Positions 50,532-63,693 of a stretch of DNA of 64,000 nt are shown in pieces. The translations under genes were made by a program, and so were the position numbers. The notes beneath the pieces were generated by a model, which was not told where the DNA came from, searched no databases, and was given only the letters and a program-made list of their open reading frames with translations. Each line of letters begins with the position of its first letter. Position 1 is the first letter of the stretch. Source of the DNA: Nitratidesulfovibrio termitidis HI1 (lineage in GTDB: Bacteria > Desulfobacterota > Desulfovibrionia > Desulfovibrionales > Desulfovibrionaceae); NCBI RefSeq assembly GCF_000504305.1, contig NZ_KI632512.1:2168250-2232249 (forward strand). Direction: 5' to 3'.

Positions 50532-51344
50532 CTACTTCCACGCGGCCAGAAACGATTCGGCGCTGTTGCCCGCGTCGATGTGGCGCAACAGGGCAGAGCC
50601 GAACACCACCGCATCGGGCCGGTCGGGGAAGCCTTCCAGCTGCTTCGGTTCCTTGATGCCGAAGCCCAGCGCCAGCGGCAGGCGAAAGGCCTTGCGCGCG
50701 CGGGCCAGCGTCTGCGGCACCTCCGGCGGCAGGCCCTCGCGCACGCCGGTGATGCCCAGCACCGACACCACGTACACGTAGCCGGAGGCCACGGCGGCGT
50801 ATTCGGCCATGCGTTCCTCGCTGGTGTTGGGGCCGACAAGGGCGATGAGGTCTATGCCCCGCGCGGCCAGCAGCGCGCGCATCTCCGCGTCTTCCTCCAA
50901 CGGCAGGTCGGGCACGATGAAGCCCGCCACCCCCGCCGCCGCCGCGTCCGCCGCCAGGTTTTCCAACCCGTATTGCAGGAACGGGTTGTAGTAGCCCATC
51001 AGCACCAGCTCGGCGTCGTAGCGGCCCGCGCGGGCCTTCAGGCCGTCCAGTATCCAGCGCAGGGTCACGCCGTTTTCCAGCGCGCGCAGCGATGCCGCCT
51101 CCACCACCGGGCCGTCGGCCACCGGGTCGGAGAACGGCACGCCGATCTCGATGACATCCGCGCCGCCGCGATCAAGGCCGTCCATTTCGTCCCAGAAGCG
51201 GTCCAGCGTGGGAAAGCCCGCCGTCAGAAAGGGCACCAGCGCGGGCCGCCCCGCCGCGTTGGCGGCAGCCACGCGGGCTTCCAGCCGCGACACCGGGGCA
51301 TCGGGCAGCATGTCGTTCATGTCGGTATGAATGGCCGCGCTCAT
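50532..51344 (-). CDS. trpA: Tryptophan synthase alpha chain
   Basis: A 270-residue alpha subunit that cleaves indole-3-glycerol phosphate to indole. It shows [46 protein letters not shown] with the catalytic Glu in [36 protein letters not shown] with the catalytic Asp, and [13 protein letters not shown] follow. The ATG overlaps the trpB stop by four bases (ATGA). It is the last gene of the operon. Confidence 0.97.
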
Positions 51345-52525
51345 GCCAGCTCTCCTTCGCGGAACAGCACTTCCCGCACGATTTCCATGTCCTTGTCGCC
51401 CCGGCCCGAAAGGTTGACCACCACGTGTCCCCCGGCAGGCAGCTTGTCCCGGTTGTTCAGCACCCACGCCAGCGCGTGCGACGATTCCAGCGCGGGGATG
51501 ATGCCCTCGCGCCGGGTCAGGGCCTGGAAGGCCCCCAGCGCCTGACTGTCGGTGGCCATGCCGTAGGTCACCCGGCCAATGGCCCCCAGATACGCGTGCT
51601 CCGGCCCCACGCCTGGGTAGTCCAGCCCGGCGGACACGGAGTGCGACGGCTCGATCTGACCGTCCGCGTCCTGCAGCAGCATGGTCATCTGGCCGTGCAG
51701 CACGCCGGGGCGGCCCAGGTTGATGGGCGCGGAATTGTAGCAGCCCGGCTCGCCGGTGCCTGCCGCCTCTACCCCCACGATGCGCACCGAGGCGTCATCC
51801 ACGAACGGATGGAACATGCCGATGGCGTTGGAGCCGCCGCCCACGCAGGCCACCACCATGTCGGGCAGCTGGCCCGTGCGCTCCAGCATCTGGGCGCGGG
51901 TTTCGCGCCCGATGACGCATTGCAGGTCGCGCACCAGCGTGGGGAAGGGGTGCGGCCCCGCCGCCGTGCCGAAGCAGTAGTGCGTGGAATCCTGCTGGGC
52001 AATCCAGTAGCGCAGGGCCTCGTTGATGGCGTCCTTCAGGGTCTTGGTGCCGCTCTGCACGGGCACCACCTTGGCCCCCAGCAGCTTCATGCGCATGACG
52101 TTGGGGGCCTGACGCACCACGTCCGTCGCGCCCATGTAGATCACGCATTCCATGCCCAGACGCGCCGCCGCCGCCGCCGTGGCCACGCCGTGCTGGCCCG
52201 CGCCCGTTTCCGCCACCAGCGCGGTCTTGCCCATGTACTTGGCCAGCAGCGCCTGCCCAAGCGTGTTGTTGACCTTGTGCGCGCCGGTGTGCAGCAGGTC
52301 TTCGCGCTTCAGCCACAGGTTCACGCCCAGTTCCGCCGACAGCGTGGGGCAGGCCGTGAGCGGGGTTTCGCGCCCGGCAAAGTTGCGCAAAAGGTCGTCC
52401 AGTTCCGCCCGGAACTTGTCCGAGGGCAGGATGTCGCGCATGGCGGCTTCCAGTTCCCGCAGCGGCGGCATGAGCAACTCGGGCACGAACTGCCCGCCGA
52501 ACTCGCCGAAATAGCCTTTTTTCAT
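51341..52525 (-). CDS. trpB: Tryptophan synthase beta chain
   Basis: A 394-residue PLP enzyme that joins indole and serine to give tryptophan. It starts with [19 protein letters not shown]. The PLP lysine is in [18 protein letters not shown], the allosteric/catalytic Glu lies in [14 protein letters not shown], and the phosphate-binding loop is [23 protein letters not shown] and the C-terminal LSGRGDKD are standard TrpB1-type sequence. The ATG at 52525 has AAAGGA. The start lies 40 bp after the trpF stop, and trpA overlaps its end. Confidence 0.98.
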
Positions 52526-52564
52526 GGTGGTATCCTTTGGCGCGGGAGCGCCAGTTGGTATCGA

Positions 52565-53233
52565 CTATGCCGTGCGCAGCACCGCAAGGGCGGCGGCCAC
52601 GCGGGTTGCATCCTTCTGGCCGGGGGCGCTTTCCACCCCCGAATTGAGATCGACGCCGATCAGCATGGCGGGGTCATGGCCGCCGCAGGCGGCAACGGCG
52701 CTGGCCGCGTTGTCCGGGGTCAGACCGCCCGCCAGCAGCCACGGCGCGCCGGGAGCCAGACCGCGCAAGGCGGCCCAGTCCATGGTGGCCCCGTGACCGC
52801 CGCCGCTGGTGCCCGCATCCAGCAGAAAGCAGCGCACATGCGGGGCAAGCCCGGCGAGTTCTGCTTCCAGCGCGGTGCGGTCCGCATGCCGTTGCGGCCA
52901 TGCCACGCGAACGACCCGTTCACGCCCCACCCGGTCGCAGAAGGCGGCATCCTGCCCGCCGTGCAACTGGGCGAAGTCCAGCCGGACCGCGTCCATGATG
53001 GCCAGCACCTCGTCGGCGGACTGTTTCACGAACACCCCCACCCGCGCCATGCCATGGCTGCGCAGCCCGGCAGCCACGGCGGGCGTTACCGCGCGCGGGC
53101 TGGCCGGGTGGAAGATGAACCCGCACAGGTCCACCCCGGCCTCCGCGCAGGCGTCCGCATCCTGCTGCCGGGTCAGGCCGCAGACCTTCACCAGCAGGCG
53201 GTTGGGACTATCGAACAGGGCGGCTGGTGTCAT
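52565..53233 (-). CDS. trpF: Phosphoribosylanthranilate isomerase
   Basis: A 222-residue TIM-barrel isomerase, third step from anthranilate. VKVCGLTRQQDADACAEAGVDLCGFIFHPASPR holds the general-base Cys. The region VGVFVKQSADEV, LDFAQLHGGQD, the general-acid Asp in FLLDAGTSGGGHG, LAGGLTPDNA and GVDLNSGVE is typical. The ATG at 53233 overlaps the trpC stop (ATGA), so the start is set by that coupling; a start at 53257 is rejected. Confidence 0.96.
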   Translation of the reverse strand: MTPAALFDSPNRLLVKVCGLTRQQDADACAEAGVDLCGFIFHPASPRAVTPAVAAGLRSHGMARVGVFVKQSADEVLAIMDAVRLDFAQLHGGQDAAFCDRVGRERVVRVAWPQRHADRTALEAELAGLAPHVRCFLLDAGTSGGGHGATMDWAALRGLAPGAPWLLAGGLTPDNAASAVAACGGHDPAMLIGVDLNSGVESAPGQKDATRVAAALAVLRTA

Positions 53234-54207
53234 CGGGCACCTTCGTTTTCGCAGCAATCCGGCACGACAGGTTTTTCGTTCTCCGGCAAGGAAGGCGAGC
53301 CCGACGCGCAGGGAGCGTACTCCGACCGTACGTGACCGGAGCAGGCGGCGCAGCCTGACGACGCCGGAGGACGAAAGGACGGAGTGCCCTCGCGTCCGAG
53401 GAGACGCATCAGCGAACCTTCAAGGTCGCCCCCATCCATCAGCGCGGTGCCCACCAATGCCGCGTCATACCCGGCATCGGCGGCTTCCGCCAGGTGGCGG
53501 TATTCGGCGATGCCGCTGGCCGCTATCCAGACCTCGTCGGGTTCGCTCAGCGGCCCCAGACGCAGGCAGGCGGTGCGGTCCACGGCCAGGGTTTCCAGAT
53601 CGCGGTTGTTCACCTGGATGATCCGCGCGCCGGATTCGCGCGCCAGCGCAAGATCCGCCTCGTCGAATATCTCCACCACGGCATGCATCCCGTACGCTTC
53701 GGCCTGTTCGCGCAGGTCGCGCAGGGTGCGCGCATCTGGAGTCAGCCGCACGATGAGCAGCAGGGCCGACGCCGGGGTGGCCGCCGTGGCTTCCACCTGC
53801 AACGGGTCCATGATGAAGTCCTTGCGCAGCAGGGGTACAGTCGGAGCGACTGCCGCCATGCGTTCCAGATAGGCCAGGTCACCGCCGAAGTACTGTTCCT
53901 CGGTCAGCACCGAGATGGCCGTGGCCCCTGCGGAAGTATAGGCCGTGGCTGCGTCCTCCGGCGACACGCCCGTCTCGATGACCCCGCGCGAGGGCGAGGC
54001 GCGTTTGTACTCGGCGATGACCGACACCGGCGCACCCCGGTACCCCGTGCGATCCTGCAACGCCCGCAGGAAGTCCGGGCGCGGGGTGCCGCCGGAACCT
54101 GTCCCGACCGTTCCTGCAAGCAGCGGCGCGGGCAGCCCGCCGACAGCGGCCAGCTTGCGCAGCCGGTCCAGTTCCGGCTGCTTGGCTATGCGAAAGCGAT
54201 CAAGCAT
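53230..54207 (-). CDS. trpC: Indole-3-glycerol-phosphate synthase with repeat-encoded tail
   Basis: A 325-residue protein. Residues 1-272 are a complete TrpC: VIAEYKRASPSRGVI, AISVLTEEQYFGGDLAYLERM, VPLLRKDFIMDPLQVEA, IIQVNNRDLETLAVD, IAASGIAEY and ALVGTALMDGGDLEGSLMRLLG. It closes the indole ring from CdRP. Residues from about 274 to 316 (including GCAACSGHVRSEYAPCASG) are a translation of repeat copy R4 and are not part of the fold. The start overlaps the trpD stop by eight bases, and the stop overlaps trpF. Confidence 0.95.
   Translation of the reverse strand: MLDRFRIAKQPELDRLRKLAAVGGLPAPLLAGTVGTGSGGTPRPDFLRALQDRTGYRGAPVSVIAEYKRASPSRGVIETGVSPEDAATAYTSAGATAISVLTEEQYFGGDLAYLERMAAVAPTVPLLRKDFIMDPLQVEATAATPASALLLIVRLTPDARTLRDLREQAEAYGMHAVVEIFDEADLALARESGARIIQVNNRDLETLAVDRTACLRLGPLSEPDEVWIAASGIAEYRHLAEAADAGYDAALVGTALMDGGDLEGSLMRLLGREGTPSFRPPASSGCAACSGHVRSEYAPCASGSPSLPENEKPVVPDCCENEGAR
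53261..53388 (-). repeat. Structured 3'-end repeat, copy R4 (inside trpC)
   Basis: The element follows the family layout: end arms TTTCGTTCTCCGGC / GCCGGAGGACGAAA, the core GTACGGTCGGAGTACGCTCC, and the CTCGCCTTCCTTGCCGGAG end common to R5. Its inner stem is the weakest of the five. It lies in frame at the 3' end of trpC and is read through as a tail of about 43 residues. Confidence 0.8.
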
Positions 54208-55216
54208 GCAGCACCTTCCCCCCTGCCCCGGCTGCCAGCGCCAGCCGCGCTGCGGCCATGGCGTCGGGCAGGGCCAGACCCGGCTCCAGCAGGTGCAGGG
54301 CCATGCCCACGTTCAGCACCAGCATGTCGCGCATGGGGGCGGGACCGCCGCCGGACAGCAGTTCGCGCAGCACGCGCACGGCGGTGTCGCGGTCGGGCAC
54401 GGCCAGTTCTTCGGGGGTGCAGGGCGCGATGCCGTAGTCCGCCGGGTCCACGCTGATTTCCGTGAGCGAGCCGTGGCCTTCGCCGTCGCCCTCCAGCAGC
54501 ATGATGTGCGCGGGGCCCATGGGCGTCAGTTCATCATAGCCGCCCGCGCCATGCACCACCGCCGCCCGGCGCACGCCGGTCAGCAGCAGGGTCCGGGCCA
54601 TCAGCGGCAGCAGTTCGGCGCGGGCCACGCCCAGCAGCATGTGGCTGGGACGGGCCGGGTTGAGCAGCGGCCCCAGCAGGTTGAACAGGGTGCGCACGCC
54701 CAGTTCGCGCCGGATGGGCATGACGTTGCGGAACGTTGGGTGGAAGCGCGGCGCGAACAGGAAGGCGAAGTTGCGCTGTGCCACCAGCGCGCGCACGTCG
54801 TCCGGGTCCAGTTCCAGCGGCAGGCCCAGGCCCTCCACCGCGTCCGCCGCCCCGCACGAGGACGACACCGCGCGGTTGCCGTGCTTGACCACCCGATGGC
54901 CCATGCCCGCCAGGGTCAGCGCCGTGGCCGTGGAGCAGTTGAAGGACGAGCGGCCATCGCCGCCGGTGCCCACGATGTCGATGGTGGGGCCGTCAATGCC
55001 GGTCACCCGCACGGCGCGGGCCAGCGCGGCGCGCACCGCCTCGGTGAGTTCCTGCGGGGTCTCGCCCTTCATGCGCAGCCCCATCAGGAACGAACCCGCC
55101 TGCGCGCAGGTCATCTCGCCGTCCATCAGGCGCGAGAACCCGGCCTCGGCCAGCTCCGGCGCAAGATCAACGCCCGTGGCCAGTGTTTCCAGTATGGTGG
55201 AAGTTGCAGTCTGCAT
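54200..55216 (-). CDS. trpD: Anthranilate phosphoribosyltransferase
   Basis: A 338-residue enzyme that moves phosphoribosyl from PRPP to anthranilate. The PRPP-binding loop is DIVGTGGDGRSSFNCSTATALTLAG, and KHGNRAVSSSCGAADAVEGLG, FAPRFHPTFRNVMPIRRELGVRTLFNLLGPLLNPA and GYDELTPMGP are all diagnostic. It is a stand-alone enzyme, not fused to TrpG. The ATG at 55216 has AAGGAGA. A 114-bp gap with hairpin repeat C separates it from trpG. Confidence 0.97.
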   Translation of the reverse strand: MQTATSTILETLATGVDLAPELAEAGFSRLMDGEMTCAQAGSFLMGLRMKGETPQELTEAVRAALARAVRVTGIDGPTIDIVGTGGDGRSSFNCSTATALTLAGMGHRVVKHGNRAVSSSCGAADAVEGLGLPLELDPDDVRALVAQRNFAFLFAPRFHPTFRNVMPIRRELGVRTLFNLLGPLLNPARPSHMLLGVARAELLPLMARTLLLTGVRRAAVVHGAGGYDELTPMGPAHIMLLEGDGEGHGSLTEISVDPADYGIAPCTPEELAVPDRDTAVRVLRELLSGGGPAPMRDMLVLNVGMALHLLEPGLALPDAMAAARLALAAGAGGKVLHA

Positions 55217-55265
55217 TTGCTGTCTCCTTCAGGAGTTCTTTATGGGACGGGCAGCCTACCTAAAG

Positions 55266-55301
55266 GGGGTGCAGGGGGCCTGCCCCCTGCCCGCCGGAGG
55301 C
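55266..55301 (+). repeat. 36-bp hairpin repeat (family C), copy 2
   Basis: It differs by one base from the copy at 20881-20916 and has the same following A-run. It lies in the trpG-trpD gap, in the opposite orientation to these genes. In the mRNA it would form GCAGGGGGC / GCCCCCTGC just downstream of the trpG stop. Confidence 0.75.
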
Positions 55302-55330
55302 GAACAAAAAACCTCTCCGCTGCCCCGCTC

Positions 55331-55909
55331 CTACTTCCCCGCCACCTGGGCGGGAAAGTTGGCGAGCATGCGCACGCCGTCGGGGGTCAGCACGGATTCG
55401 GGGTGGAACTGCACGCCCACCCAGGGCCGGTCGGTGTAGCGCAGGGCCATCACCTCGCCCTCGGGGGCGCGGGCGGTGACGGCCAGCAGGTCGGGGCGTT
55501 CCTCGGCATGCACGATGAGCGAGTGGTAGCGGCCCACCTGCATGGGGCTGGGCACGCCGTGGAACAGACCCTGCCCGTCGTGGGTAATGTCCGAGGTCTT
55601 GCCGTGCATGATGCGCGGGCCCACATCCACGGTGGCCCCGGCGAACAGGCCCAGCACCTGATGGCCCAGGCACACGCCCAGCACGGGCACGGTGTGCGGC
55701 AGACGCGACAGGAAATCGAGGCAGAAGCCCGCGTTGCGCGGGTGGCTGGGGCCTGGCGAGATGCACACCATCGAAAGCTTCGGGTCTTCGGCCATGGCGG
55801 GCACGGCGGGATCGTCGTTGCGGACCACCACCGGCTTCAGCCCAAGGCCGTAGAACGCCTGCACCAGATTGAAGGTGAACGAGTCGTAGTTATCGATTAA
55901 CAGGAACAT
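55331..55909 (-). CDS. trpG: Anthranilate synthase component II (glutamine amidotransferase)
   Basis: A 192-residue class I glutaminase giving ammonia to TrpE. It starts MFLLIDNYDSFTFNLVQAFYGLG. The catalytic Cys is in VLGVCLGHQVLGLFAGA; the His and Glu of the triad are in GVQFHPESVLTPDG. ISPGPSHPRNAG and GRYHSLIV are also conserved. The ATG at 55909 has GGAGGGG and overlaps the end of trpE by 20 bases, which fits coupled translation of the two subunits. Confidence 0.97.
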   Translation of the reverse strand: MFLLIDNYDSFTFNLVQAFYGLGLKPVVVRNDDPAVPAMAEDPKLSMVCISPGPSHPRNAGFCLDFLSRLPHTVPVLGVCLGHQVLGLFAGATVDVGPRIMHGKTSDITHDGQGLFHGVPSPMQVGRYHSLIVHAEERPDLLAVTARAPEGEVMALRYTDRPWVGVQFHPESVLTPDGVRMLANFPAQVAGK

Positions 55910-57464
55910 ATTCCCCTCCGGTGACGGCGGCGCGGATGACGGCGGTCTTGTTGTTGCATTCCTTCCATTCCATTTCGGGCACGGAATCGAACACGATGCC
56001 TGCGCCGGCCTGCCAGTGCACCTGCCCGTCGCGCACCCACAGCGAGCGGATGGTGATGCCGGTGTCCAGGTTCACGCTGCCCCGGTCCAGCCCCAGCCAG
56101 CCGATGGCGCCCGCGTAGGGGCCGCGCGCCAGGCCTTCCGCCTCGGAGATGATTTCCATGGCCCGCACCTTGGGCGCGCCGCTGACGGTGCCCGCCGGGA
56201 AGGTGGCGGCCAGCACGTCCAGCGCGTCGCGGCCCGGTTCGATCTGCGCGGTGACGCGCGAGGTCAGGTGCATGACGTGCGAGAACTTTTCCACGTCCAT
56301 GAACCGCTCCACCTGCACGGTGCCCGGCGCGGCAATGCGGCCAAGGTCGTTGCGGCCAAGGTCCACCAGCATGACGTGCTCGGCGCGTTCCTTGGGGTCT
56401 TCCAGCAGTTCCTGGGCCAAGGCGGCGTCGTGGGCGTCGTCCGTGCCGCGCGGGCGGGTGCCCGCGATGGGGCTGACCTGCAACTTGTCCGCCCGGCAGC
56501 GCACCATGACCTCCGGCGACGACCCCAGCAGCGAAACGCCGGGCAGGCGCATGAAGAACATGTACGGCGACGGGTTGATGCGGCGCAGACGGCGGTACAG
56601 CGTGAACGGGTCGCCGCTGAACGATGCCTGGAAACGGGTGGACAGCACCACCTGAATGGCCTCGCCCTCGCGGATCATGTCCTTCACCCGGGCCACGGCG
56701 CGGGTGTACACGGCCTGTTCCGGCACGTTGACCACGGGGCCGACTTCCGGCGGTTCCGGCGTGCGGTCCACCTGGCTGCGGTCCACCCTGGCGCCGGGCA
56801 GGTCGGTGAGCGAAAGCTGGCACAGCCGGTTGTACAGGTGGTCGAACACCACCACGGTGCCGGGCAGGGCCAGGCAGGCTTCCGCCGACGACGGCGGCAG
56901 CACCTTGGCCAGCTTGGGTTCGAACAGCCCGGACACGCCGTAGCCGAAATAGCCGTACAGGGCGCGGGTGATGGGGGGCTGGTCGGCAAAGGCACCGTCC
57001 GGTTCGATGCGCAGGGCGCGCATCACCGCGCGGGTGCCCTCGATGAAGCCCATGCCGTCGAACCGGCGCAGCGGGGCAAGGCGCGGGTCGCGCACGGCTA
57101 CTTCCAGCTTGCCGTCGCGGCAGCCAAGACGCAGCAGGAAGTTGAAGGCGATGACGCTGTACCGGCCCCAACGGCCGTCCACTTCGGCACTTTCCAGCAG
57201 AATGCCCTGCCCGGACCCCACCATGCCCAGGAACACGCTGATGGGGGTGTCCACATCGGCCTCCAGCCAGCGACCGGTCTGGCGCAGCACGATCTCGCCG
57301 CCTTCGGGCAGCGGGGGAATGTCGTCCCCGGAACCGTTGGTGACGCAAGCGCAGCCGTTGGCCTGGGTCTGCGTGACTTCCGGCGTCTGGGGGGCCTGTG
57401 CCGTTTCGGGGGCTTCCGCCTGATCGGGCATTTCAGCCTGTGCGGGCATTTCGGGCATTTCCAT
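55890..57464 (-). CDS. trpE: Anthranilate synthase component I
   Basis: A 524-residue chorismate-utilising enzyme. The C-terminal catalytic part shows IREGEAIQVVLSTRF, LRRINPSPYMFFMRLPG, SPEVMVRC, SPIAGTRPRG, DPKERAEHVMLVDLGRNDLGRIA, FPAGTVSGAPKVRAMEII and YAGAIGW. The first 45 residues are a Gln/Ala/Glu-rich extension. The Trp feedback site near the N-terminus usually has an LLES element, and LLESAEVDGRWGRYSVI is present, so feedback inhibition by Trp is expected. The ATG at 57464 has AAGGAGA. It is preceded by an intrinsic terminator that appears to be a Trp attenuator. Confidence 0.97.
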   Translation of the reverse strand: MEMPEMPAQAEMPDQAEAPETAQAPQTPEVTQTQANGCACVTNGSGDDIPPLPEGGEIVLRQTGRWLEADVDTPISVFLGMVGSGQGILLESAEVDGRWGRYSVIAFNFLLRLGCRDGKLEVAVRDPRLAPLRRFDGMGFIEGTRAVMRALRIEPDGAFADQPPITRALYGYFGYGVSGLFEPKLAKVLPPSSAEACLALPGTVVVFDHLYNRLCQLSLTDLPGARVDRSQVDRTPEPPEVGPVVNVPEQAVYTRAVARVKDMIREGEAIQVVLSTRFQASFSGDPFTLYRRLRRINPSPYMFFMRLPGVSLLGSSPEVMVRCRADKLQVSPIAGTRPRGTDDAHDAALAQELLEDPKERAEHVMLVDLGRNDLGRIAAPGTVQVERFMDVEKFSHVMHLTSRVTAQIEPGRDALDVLAATFPAGTVSGAPKVRAMEIISEAEGLARGPYAGAIGWLGLDRGSVNLDTGITIRSLWVRDGQVHWQAGAGIVFDSVPEMEWKECNNKTAVIRAAVTGGEYVPVNR

Positions 57465-57512
57465 CTGGATTCTCCTTCAAGTTCGGCGTGCCGTGAGTGG
57501 TGCGTTGAAAAC

Positions 57513-57544
57513 AAAAAGCCGCGCTCCCGGGGAGGGAGCGCGGC
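57513..57544 (-). terminator. Intrinsic terminator between tyrA and trpE (attenuator)
   Basis: On the minus strand GCCGCGCTCCC, loop TCCCC and GGGAGCGCGGC form a perfect 11-bp stem, followed at once by TTTTTGTTTTC. It stands inside the operon, 40 bases after the tyrA stop and about 50 bases before trpE, so it must be conditional for trpE to be expressed from upstream. Confidence 0.88.
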
Positions 57545-57632
57545 CTACTATTGCCTTGTCCGTTACTCTACTACTCGCGTGCAGCTATGACGGACGCACT
57601 CCTCCCCTTTCGGTGTGCGAACGCCACCACCA
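57529..57632 (-). promoter_or_regulatory. Trp attenuator with leader codons inside the end of tyrA
   Basis: Three consecutive TGG codons (57624-57632, tyrA ...AQWWWRSH...) precede the segment GGGGAGGAGTGCG (57595-57607). That segment can pair, with one bulged C and one G-U, with GCGCTCCCTCCCC (57529-57541), which is the 5' arm and loop of the terminator. The tyrA stop is at 57585-57587. A ribosome stalled on Trp codons would leave the segment free to form the antiterminator; one that reaches the stop would cover it and let the terminator form. This is inferred from geometry and pairing only. Confidence 0.75.
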
Positions 57633-58376
57633 CTGGGCGCGATCAACCAGCACGTCCACATCGCCGGCGGCGGCGAAGTTGAGGAACGACAGGTAGCTGC
57701 GGACAGCGGTCTGGCTGTGGGGATTGGCTTCGAACATGCCTTCGAAGAGGGATGCATCTTCCGTGAGCATCTTGCGCGCCGCGTCGAGGCGGCGGCGGAA
57801 CGAGGGGGTGATGAAGGGGGTAAGCTCGTCGCGGTGGGCCAGCGTGGCAAGGTAGGCAACGCTGGTGATGAAGTTCAGGCCCTGGATGCAGGCGGCGGCC
57901 TCGTCGTGCTCGTCCGCAGTGGTGCGGAAGGGCACGCAGCCCATGTCGGCGAACACGCGCTCGATAAGCGCCACATCCGCCTCGTGCGCACCTTCGCCGG
58001 GGGTCACGGCCACGCGCAGGTTCTCGGCAGGGGCACCCGCCGGGGGTACCGGGCCGAACAGCGGGTGGGTGCCCACCACGGGGCCCGCATAGTGGTGCTC
58101 CATGACCTGCATGGGGCGCACCTTGACGGAAGTGATGTCCGCCAGCACCTGCATGCCGTTCAGCAGCGGGGCCACCTGACGCAGCACCTCGTCCATGGTT
58201 TCCACGGGCACGCACAGCAGCACGGCGGCGGCACCGTCCACGGCATGACGCAAGGCATCCTGCGTCAGCGGACGGTCCACGCCCCCCACCGCGTATCCTG
58301 CGGCGGAGAGCCTGTCGGCGAACAGGCGGCCCATGCGGCCCCCCGCGCCGACCAGCGCGATTTTCACTGCGTTCAT
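57585..58376 (-). CDS. tyrA: Prephenate dehydrogenase
   Basis: A 263-residue NAD(P)-dependent enzyme for tyrosine synthesis. The N-terminal Rossmann motif is IALVGAGGRMGRLFADRL. LADITSVKVRPMQ, VVGTHPLFGP and the helical C-terminal domain (DEHDEAAACIQGLNFITSVAYLATL) are typical of monofunctional TyrA. The ATG at 58376 overlaps the aroA stop (ATGA). The last 15 residues, WWWRSHTERGGVRPS, look like a Trp leader peptide end and are followed by the trpE attenuator, so this tail may have a regulatory job. Confidence 0.95.
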   Translation of the reverse strand: MNAVKIALVGAGGRMGRLFADRLSAAGYAVGGVDRPLTQDALRHAVDGAAAVLLCVPVETMDEVLRQVAPLLNGMQVLADITSVKVRPMQVMEHHYAGPVVGTHPLFGPVPPAGAPAENLRVAVTPGEGAHEADVALIERVFADMGCVPFRTTADEHDEAAACIQGLNFITSVAYLATLAHRDELTPFITPSFRRRLDAARKMLTEDASLFEGMFEANPHSQTAVRSYLSFLNFAAAGDVDVLVDRAQWWWRSHTERGGVRPS

Positions 58377-59737
58377 GCGCGTACCTTTTCCCACTCGTTC
58401 CAGAAATGCGGGAACGACTTTGCCACGCAGGCAGGGTCGTCCAAAGCCACCTGTACCCCGGCAAACCCCAGAAGCGCAAGACTCATGGCCATGCGATGGT
58501 CGCCGTATGACAAAAATGGCATCACTTTTTCGTCATTACCCGAGGCTGGCGCCGGTGCGGGACCGCCGCTGCGCAGCGAACCGTACACGACGAGGCCGTC
58601 GTCCAGTTCTTCCACCCGCACCCCGGCCTTGCGCAGTTCCGCCGCCGGGGCGGACAACCGGTCGCATTCCTTGATGCGCAGGTGCGCCACGTTGCGGATG
58701 GTGGTCACGCCCTGGGCAAAGGCCGCCGTGGCCGCCACCGTGGGCACCAGGTCCGGGCAGTGGCCCATGTCCACTTCCACGCCGGTCAGGCTGGAAGGGG
58801 CCACCACCACGCCGTTGTCGGCCCGCTCGAAGCGAGCGCCCATGCGGCCCAAGATGTCCAGCATGGCCCGGTCGCCCTGCAACGAATCCACCCGCAAGCC
58901 TGCCACGCGCACCGGGCGCGGACCCACGGCCCCCGCAGCCAGGAAGTACGAGGCGTTGGACCAGTCGCCCTCCACCCGGTAATTGCCCGCGCGGTACACC
59001 CCCGGCGACACCACGAAACGCACCAGACCGGGCCGGACTTCGCGCAGGGTGCGCCAGTCGTCGGCCTGCCACTTGCCGCGCGGGGTTTCGCGCGTTTCCA
59101 CGCGAAAGCCGATGCCAAAGTCTTCCAGGGCTTGCAGGGTCAGGGCCACGTACGGCCACGACACCACCTTGTCGCCGGAAACCTCTATGGTCAGCCCGCT
59201 GGTAAGCGGCGCGGCCAGCAGCAGCCCCGACAGATACTGGCTGGATTCGCCAAGGCCGATGGCGGCCGAACCGCCGGACATGCCGTCGGAATCGATGAGC
59301 AGGGGCGGGCAGCCTTCGCGACCTTCGTAGGTCACGCGCACCCCGCGGTCGCGCAGCACGTCCACCAGTTCGCCGATGGGCCGTTCGTGCATGCGCGGCG
59401 CGCCGTGGATGCGGAACATCCCCTTGCCCGCCGCCAGCACCGCCGTCAGCAGGCGGCAGGTGGTGCCCGATTCGTGCACGTCGCACGATACCGGCGCGTC
59501 GAACCCGCCCGCAGGCGTGCCCGCCACGCCGGACACCGCGAACCTGCCGTCGCCCTGGCGCTCGATGCGCGCGCCCGCCGCACGCAGGATGTCTGCCGTG
59601 CGCTCGATGTCGCGGCTTTCCAGCACGTGCTCCACCACCGAATCACCCGCGGCCAGCGCCGCCCCGATCAGCATGCGGTGCGACACCGACTTGGACGGCG
59701 GTGCCGCCACGGTCACGGTTTCCCGTTTGGTTTCCAT
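58373..59737 (-). CDS. aroA: 3-phosphoshikimate 1-carboxyvinyltransferase (EPSP synthase)
   Basis: A 454-residue two-domain enzyme adding PEP to shikimate-3-phosphate. PPSKSVSHRMLIGAALA is the N-terminal substrate motif; HESGTTCRLLTAVLAAGKGMFRIHGAPRMHERPI, SSQYLSGLLLAAPL, DLVPTVAATAAFAQGVTTIRN and LRIKECDRLSA (with the DHRMAMSLALLGF end) are conserved. The usual LxGNAGTxxR is HESGTTCR here, a divergent form. The ATG at 59737 has AAAGGA. It is downstream of a 275-bp repeat-rich gap after pheA. Confidence 0.95.
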   Translation of the reverse strand: METKRETVTVAAPPSKSVSHRMLIGAALAAGDSVVEHVLESRDIERTADILRAAGARIERQGDGRFAVSGVAGTPAGGFDAPVSCDVHESGTTCRLLTAVLAAGKGMFRIHGAPRMHERPIGELVDVLRDRGVRVTYEGREGCPPLLIDSDGMSGGSAAIGLGESSQYLSGLLLAAPLTSGLTIEVSGDKVVSWPYVALTLQALEDFGIGFRVETRETPRGKWQADDWRTLREVRPGLVRFVVSPGVYRAGNYRVEGDWSNASYFLAAGAVGPRPVRVAGLRVDSLQGDRAMLDILGRMGARFERADNGVVVAPSSLTGVEVDMGHCPDLVPTVAATAAFAQGVTTIRNVAHLRIKECDRLSAPAAELRKAGVRVEELDDGLVVYGSLRSGGPAPAPASGNDEKVMPFLSYGDHRMAMSLALLGFAGVQVALDDPACVAKSFPHFWNEWEKVRA

Positions 59738-63511: not shown

Positions 63512-63555
63512 GAAAAAACAGAAAGGGGCCGCCGGCTTTTCGCCCGCGGCCCCTT
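63512..63555 (-). terminator. Leader attenuator terminator of the aromatic operon
   Basis: On the minus strand AAGGGGCCGCGGGC, loop GAAAA and GCCGGCGGCCCCTT form a 13-bp stem with one G-G mismatch, followed by TCTGTTTTTT. It lies 34 bases after the leader-peptide stop and 229 bases before the first enzyme gene. Confidence 0.88.
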
Positions 63556-63588: not shown

Positions 63589-63693
63589 TTACGCACGCTC
63601 CATGCGGCCACGGGCTTCTCCATAGCTAAAAAAGTACCAAAAATAATAGTTGGTACGATAGGCAGTGGTGAAGGTGGCGGAGGTGGAAAGCAT
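63589..63693 (-). CDS. Aromatic leader peptide (attenuation)
   Basis: A 34-codon frame from ATG 63693 to TAA 63589. It starts MLSTSATFTTAYRT; residues 15-24 read NYYFWYFFSY, eight aromatic residues in ten, and GEARGRMERA ends it. In all there are five Tyr, four Phe and one Trp codon. AGGA lies 10 bases before the start. Codons for GEARGR include GCCCGTGGCCGC (63604-63615), which can pair with the terminator 5' arm (63542-63553, 11 of 12 positions with one G-U). This is the classical design of a ribosome-mediated attenuator responding to aromatic aminoacyl-tRNAs. Confidence 0.85.
   Translation of the reverse strand: MLSTSATFTTAYRTNYYFWYFFSYGEARGRMERA

Follow-up and report, generated by a model that had tools for sequence, protein, structure and literature searches.

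The window analyzed here, a stretch of 64,000 nucleotides from Nitratidesulfovibrio termitidis HI1, carries a 12-gene operon on its minus strand with tyrA, encoding a TyrA of 269 residues, in the middle. Upstream of tyrA, Pfam searches identified genes for EPSP synthase, a CM_2/PDT/ACT protein, DHQS II and a DeoC aldolase, and the trp genes follow downstream. The features of the locus are summarized in Table 1.

Table 1. Genes and RNA elements at the aromatic amino acid locus of the window
Feature	Coordinates	Strand	Remarks
tyrA (prephenate dehydrogenase)	57585..58394	-	ORF, Pfam PDH_N; would serve the inner attenuator as its leader ORF
Three Trp codons, W255-W257 of TyrA	57624..57632	-	TGG TGG TGG; proposed sensor
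R2, antiterminator 5' strand within the tyrA coding sequence	57595..57607	-	GGGGAGGAGTGCG; encodes the GGVR tail
tyrA stop codon	57585..57587	-	TAG; a ribosome there would mask most of R2
R3, shared strand	57529..57542	-	partner of R2 (antiterminator) or of the 3' arm R4 (terminator)
Intrinsic terminator ahead of trpE	57508..57546	-	stem-loop 57546-57516 and T tract
trpE	55890..57464	-	Pfam Anth_synt_I_N and Chorismate_bind; first gene past the putative inner gate
trpG, D, C, F, B, A	50532..55909	-	remaining trp operon; trpG by Pfam GATase, the others named from ORF order and sequence reading
Front leader ORF	63589..63693	-	MLSTSATFTTAYRTNYYFWYFFSYGEARGRMERA; Tyr/Phe/Trp-rich (YYFWYFFSY); putative outer gate
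Front terminator	63513..63555	-	GGGGCCGCGGGCGAAAAGCCGGCGGCCCC and T tract

Read along the minus strand, the Trp codons of tyrA are followed after 16 nt by R2, then by the tyrA stop, the last base of which lies 10 nt beyond R2, and finally by the terminator and trpE. An earlier note on this DNA had proposed that tyrA ends with three consecutive Trp codons followed by a 13-nt segment able to pair with a perfect intrinsic terminator just ahead of trpE; codons, segment, stop and terminator were all found where it had placed them. The proposed complementarity is also present, but the partner of R2 is one base longer than described (57542-57529) and the duplex comprises ~13 bp with one bulged C. Its predicted energy is -28.7 kcal/mol, a value equalled by none of 100 dinucleotide shuffles of the spacer, and the whole tyrA-trpE junction folds with a z score of -3.7. 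The terminator has 13 pairs, 10 of them G-C, and ranked first among the 10 sites found in a terminator scan of 16 kb. Shuffled sequences gave 10.6 sites, so it is the strength of this terminator that stands out and not its existence. Searches with Rfam covariance models, including the T-box and other cis-regulatory families, gave no match at the junction up to E = 5.

In order to follow the layout among relatives, we located tyrA both within the family (260 of 288 genomes) and in five other families of the order (27 of 30). A total of 152 loci were read from family genomes and named records (some genomes being reached twice), 96 of them with trpE downstream, together with 27 more; removal of identical junctions left 109 distinct linked tyrA-trpE junctions. 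A search for a hairpin plus T tract matched 81 of these, and three matches (L096, L110, and L117) were dropped by eye as spurious, being weak or misplaced. The remaining 78 junctions, in which a strong terminator has its stem starting 17-49 nt past the tyrA stop, cover 25 genera and six families, with at least one junction in each of the five other families. At L203 (family f6) and L204 (family f5), the attenuator is preceded by WWWW at the tyrA end. Among the 31 linked junctions lacking a gate, a count from which L005 was subtracted as identical to L004, 18 have a trpE start that overlaps the tyrA end, coincides with it or follows it by no more than ~45 nt, and the other 13 belong to genera g7, g22, g27, g34, g35, and g36. 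The 18 loci with such a trpE start (L080, L084, L093, L119, and L063-L065 among them) carry AWW in 11 cases and WWW in five. Five further loci, L073 and L075 (g35), L096 and L101 (g36), and L106 (g27), keep WWW and have no T-tract terminator by the criteria used; visible GC-rich inverted repeats might have another mode of action there, such as an effect on the translation of trpE. A scan of 348 genomes with a WWW...GGG...CCC pattern proved too loose, the reversed control pattern matching about equally often, and was left unused.

The spacing of these elements is narrow on one side and wide on the other. Across the 78 junctions, R2 starts 16.6 ± 1.9 nt (range 14-22) past the last Trp codon, its start being placed at the first run of G close to the duplex, a choice that tidies the spacing a little, whereas the tyrA stop follows the last Trp codon by anything from 6 to 42 nt (25 ± 9.0 nt). 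Depending on the genus, R2 consequently either falls within the tyrA frame or starts at the stop codon or past it. The leading edge of a ribosome usually reaches 11 nt past its A-site codon. With this assumed footprint, the first ten paired bases of R2 would be wholly free in 74 of the 78 junctions when the last Trp codon occupies the A site, and the R2 core would be at least half masked in 75 when the stop codon does. This predicted freeing and masking of R2 is the geometry of ribosome-mediated attenuation, and the claim that the geometry of classical trp attenuation can be had with no separate leader peptide agrees with the recurrence of spacing, terminator and R2 in 78 of 109 junctions.

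Over the 78 junctions the R2:R3 pairing averages -22.7 kcal/mol and is matched by at most five of 100 dinucleotide shuffles in 72 of them. When R2 segments were permuted among the 25 genera, the genus mean rose from -23.25 kcal/mol for own R2/R3 pairs to -18.22 (SD 0.50), and none of 20,000 permutations reached a value as low as the own-pair mean; the genus codes of L049 and L056 were assigned for this purpose by sequence likeness to L183 and L074. A genus's own R2 was better than the foreign mean in 23 of the 25 genera, the exceptions being g33 and g58, and 18% of foreign R2s over all loci paired better than the own R2. A MAFFT alignment across genera with differing spacing (A1) shifted six rows of g33 and brought R2 and R3 out of register. 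Covariation was therefore counted on two other alignments, A2 (g1, g23, and four loci of g12, g13, and g37) and A3 (free of the six g33 rows and including one g26 row). In A3 we observed 20 doubly changed cells in four of the 10 pairs, with 98.5% paired, each of which was reached in none of 500 shuffles, and in A2 11 doubly changed cells (0 of 500 shuffles). The pair-type count was not above shuffles in either alignment, nor was the number of A2 pairs with both sides changed, a value that 97 of 500 shuffles reached. A comparison of g24 (GGGACGCGGC/GCCGCGTCCC) with g37 (GGGGTGCGGC/GCCGCACCCC) shows two adjacent pairs changed on both sides, and in Halodesulfovibrio (g23) the tail coding for GGVR has become GEVH with the terminator changing along with it. 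One column has R2:R3 intact in all 20 sequences, six of which have lost the pair within the terminator; R2:R3 thus seems to be kept for itself. As a control, 45 tyrA genes lacking trpE behind them were inspected; 11 have a terminator, and R2 pairing was found in none of the 11. Antiterminator covariation in relatives had been named beforehand as a check, and the compensatory changes in the alignments, together with the own-pair preference in the genus permutations, bear it out.

WWW was present in 76 of the 78 attenuator junctions (LWW and WWF in the other two), as expected if relatives that keep the terminator also keep the codons, compared with 10 of the 31 linked junctions lacking an attenuator. 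However, the earlier reading of the run as regulatory codons does not hold in a pure form. WWW was also found in 35 of 55 tyrA genes without trpE behind them, and in 42 TyrA sequences, with or without attenuator, W256 is invariant and W257 nearly so, so that part of the Trp run must be ascribed to protein constraint. Many of the unlinked WWW-containing tyrA genes come from Desulfovibrio (g17) and its neighbours, which are derived from the enzyme-tail state in the TrpE tree described below. The variable position is W255, and it varies chiefly where the attenuator is absent (AWW, GWW, RWW, LWW, and SWW). In an AlphaFold model of TyrA (mean pLDDT 91.5), W255-W257 lie in the last helix, residues 246-262, and residues 264-269, encoded by R2 and what follows, have pLDDT below 50. 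These observations fit a dual use in which at least one Trp belongs to the enzyme, and W255 and the low-confidence tail belong mainly to the RNA.

Based on these results, transcription at the tyrA-trpE junction is very probably attenuated in a ribosome-mediated manner, with the end of tyrA itself serving as the leader. From the sequence parts, their conservation, spacing and covariation we infer a switch that would operate by stalling and termination in response to tryptophan. When Trp-tRNA is scarce, the ribosome nearest to the polymerase would stall within the run of Trp codons, shortly before R2; the free R2 would pair with R3, block the terminator and let the polymerase enter trpEGDCFBA. 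When tryptophan is ample, the ribosome would reach the tyrA stop and cover R2, R3 would pair with R4, and transcription would end before trpE, leaving the upstream aroA, pheA and tyrA unaffected by the inner gate. The two alternatives were folded, as the earlier note had suggested. The window antiterminator is available first, with -39.0 kcal/mol before R4 is made, and its state of -40.2 compares with -34.9 when R2 is masked and the terminator forms. Once the whole RNA is out, however, the predicted minimum for a free R2, -44.7, still holds the terminator. The switch would thus have to be kinetic, the antiterminator winning by forming first. In a published model, attenuation can be hyper-sensitive only if translation and transcription are strictly synchronised (PMC1183508), and a trailing ribosome coupled to the polymerase through tyrA would supply such synchrony. 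A search for a 1:2 pause hairpin of special stability found none (mean z 0.10, n = 71); R1 pairs with R2 by at least 4 bp in the predicted minimum of 59 of 71 junctions, in segments no more stable than shuffles. One survey describes TrpR regulons in eight gammaproteobacterial lineages (PMC5343134), a scope that leaves room for RNA-level control here.

A second attenuator is predicted at the front of the supraoperon, where a leader ORF rich in Tyr, Phe and Trp codons precedes a terminator (R2:R3 pairing of -27.5 kcal/mol). This leader is conserved in all eight genomes of the window's genus. Ten further stretches (L250-L258 and the g47 trp leader) were picked by match to the front DNA, and nine of them, from distant genera, contain leader ORFs that are likewise rich in aromatic residues, with runs such as YFFWYFYF and FYFWYFYF; of the 39 genomes searched, 19 gave no DNA match. 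Table 7 of Jensen et al. (2005; PMC1173090) marks a single attenuator, predicted by Merino, in the same kind of supraoperon in D. vulgaris, ahead of the whole aromatic gene set. That attenuator is probably the front leader and not the tyrA-trpE junction. We infer two nested gates, in which the front leader would control the whole supraoperon and the inner gate the trp genes alone.

In genomes where tyrA and trpE are separated, the attenuator has a leader of its own. A search for trpE covered 30 genomes, in almost all of which tyrA is unlinked, and gave a match in 25; the 24 full trpE loci comprised one linked control (L153) and 23 unlinked loci. All 23 of the latter have a short ORF with clustered Trp codons before trpE (19 WWW, three WW, and one WRW), with R2 13-17 nt past the codons and then a terminator, although R2:R3 is weak in L169 (-12.3) and L176 (-14.0). 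At L165 (g17), a GC-rich inverted repeat lies between the stand-alone attenuator and trpE. These leaders of Desulfovibrio and its relatives share clustered Trp codons, R2, spacing and terminator with the linked junctions and mostly end in a WWWR...G(D)VR kind of tail, as the enzyme does, but are short ORFs right before trpE, detached from tyrA, and form a derived clade in the tree described next. The tail of the L154 leader (MLNAFSLTFSAYR-WWWRVVDVKGGVRPA) matches that of the window TyrA (AQ-WWWRSHTERGGVRPS) at 37 of 56 aligned bases, a likeness that by itself could also come from shared function. In a quick TrpE tree of 76 rows, the 15 stand-alone rows formed one clade (SH-aLRT 93). Since this tree joined two long branches, the long L169, L176, and L203, as well as the short piece L183, were left out of a more careful tree of 72 rows, which was rooted by choice on families f2, f3, f5, and f6. 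Here the 13 stand-alone loci included, of the 23, form one clade (100/100). Its sister group is the genus of the window (100/99), and Halodesulfovibrio follows; the latter two both have the enzyme-tail form, as do all 12 outgroup rows from the other families. Given this placement, the enzyme-tail form looks ancestral in the order, and the stand-alone leader peptide was apparently derived from it once the trp operon had moved away. Outside this tree, a genome of another family (G305, g47) has two tandem WWW leader ORFs before an unlinked trpE, each with a terminator-like hairpin (L259, G305:C17:387050-387700), and a tyrA tail of HWW; here the trp operon has apparently parted from tyrA a second time, independently, and attenuation would be doubled.

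Three other explanations of the junction were considered. Terminators after genes are common, and the one described here might be an ordinary end-of-transcript signal for tyrA, followed by a separate trpE promoter, with WWW and R2 present by coincidence. The distance from terminator to predicted trpE start, which exceeds 100 nt in 22 of the 78 junctions, would allow this, but it is 45 nt or less from the stem end in 33, which leaves little room for a promoter, and a weak scan showed no sigma-70-like site there in the window. Coincidence is also hard to reconcile with the R2 pairing and its covariation, or with the lack of R2 behind all 11 terminators of unlinked tyrA genes, and we regard this explanation as very improbable. 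A polarity effect of the rph-pyrE type, in which a ribosome translating to the end of tyrA prevents the terminator and Trp codons play no part, would suit the position of the gate, as rph-pyrE likewise has an intercistronic terminator behind the 3' end of a gene for an enzyme. It would predict neither R2, nor a fixed distance from Trp codons to R2, nor WWW, all of which were found. In addition, the stems start beyond the assumed ribosome edge, so that a ribosome at the tyrA stop would not block the terminator, and such an effect is accordingly most unlikely here.

The invariance of W256 and near-invariance of W257, their place in a confidently predicted helix and the retention of WWW in many unlinked tyrA genes would all be accounted for if the run were kept for TyrA structure only, and the junction regulated by a ligand or protein binding the RNA. 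Yet W255 is mostly the residue that varies when the attenuator is absent, the distance of R2 is set from the Trp codons and not from the stop, the 23 stand-alone leaders all keep clustered Trp codons at the same spacing, and the junction matched no Rfam family. A purely structural role for the run thus seems scarcely tenable, and attenuation by a ribosome sensing the Trp codons of tyrA is the explanation we favour.

Compared with known systems, the junction resembles the E. coli trpL attenuator, in which, according to PMC1183508, cognate Trp codons stand in a translated frame, a II:III antiterminator competes with a III:IV terminator, and fast passage of the ribosome over the codons leads to termination. 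In the tyrA-trpE junctions, too, consecutive cognate codons lie in a translated frame ahead of the gate, an intrinsic terminator precedes the structural genes, and covariation supports a mutually exclusive antiterminator. They would work by a mechanism like that of a ribosome-mediated attenuator and depart from the classical type in lacking a dedicated short leader ORF, the frame here being tyrA with its PDH_N domain. The sensor of trpL is a 14-residue peptide at the operon start; here it would be a 269-residue enzyme in mid-operon, the ribosome would have to have followed the polymerase through all of tyrA, and there is no clear pause hairpin.

The closest precedent is rph-pyrE of E. coli. 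A 1984 paper on its mechanism reportedly describes, as its title has it, UTP-modulated attenuation, and we know of no regulatory codons in that system. There, ribosomes translate the 3' end of rph, the upstream gene encoding the enzyme RNase PH, as far as an attenuator in front of the next gene (PMC2784333). It differs from the tyrA-trpE gate in codon sensing and in the direction of the effect, as an rph stop nearer to or past the loop relieves termination and the tyrA stop would cause it; judged by geometry, a ribosome at the end of tyrA is not placed to prevent the terminator. The view that an enzyme's own C-terminus had not been described as a leader therefore holds for amino acid codons as far as searched, but not for the use of an upstream enzyme gene's 3' end, which rph-pyrE already shows. 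Among titles and abstract openings of the open-licence literature, we found no enzyme C-terminus carrying attenuator codons and no Desulfovibrio tyrA-trpE gate.

In textbook attenuation the sensing frame is a disposable mini-peptide, and here, apparently in many sulfate-reducing bacteria, a full enzyme gene in mid-operon would take that part. Since such a sensor works only if the ribosome follows closely, the junction offers a natural test of how closely ribosomes trail the polymerase over an 800-nt gene. Attenuators of this class can escape surveys if their sensing frame has been annotated as a gene; a published survey (PMC2965389) covered intergenic regions and short ORFs of less than 200 nt. 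The two-gate design would let the supraoperon answer all aromatic amino acids at the front and Trp alone inside. It is likely that the C-terminal codons of an enzyme have served as the amino acid sensor of an attenuator since the base of this entire bacterial order, that the tail beyond the last helix has been maintained for pairing in the RNA and not for the function of the protein, and that this tail was then detached as a leader peptide in the Desulfovibrio lineage. This is a candidate route for the origin of leader peptides, and, if true, leader peptides can be born from enzymes.
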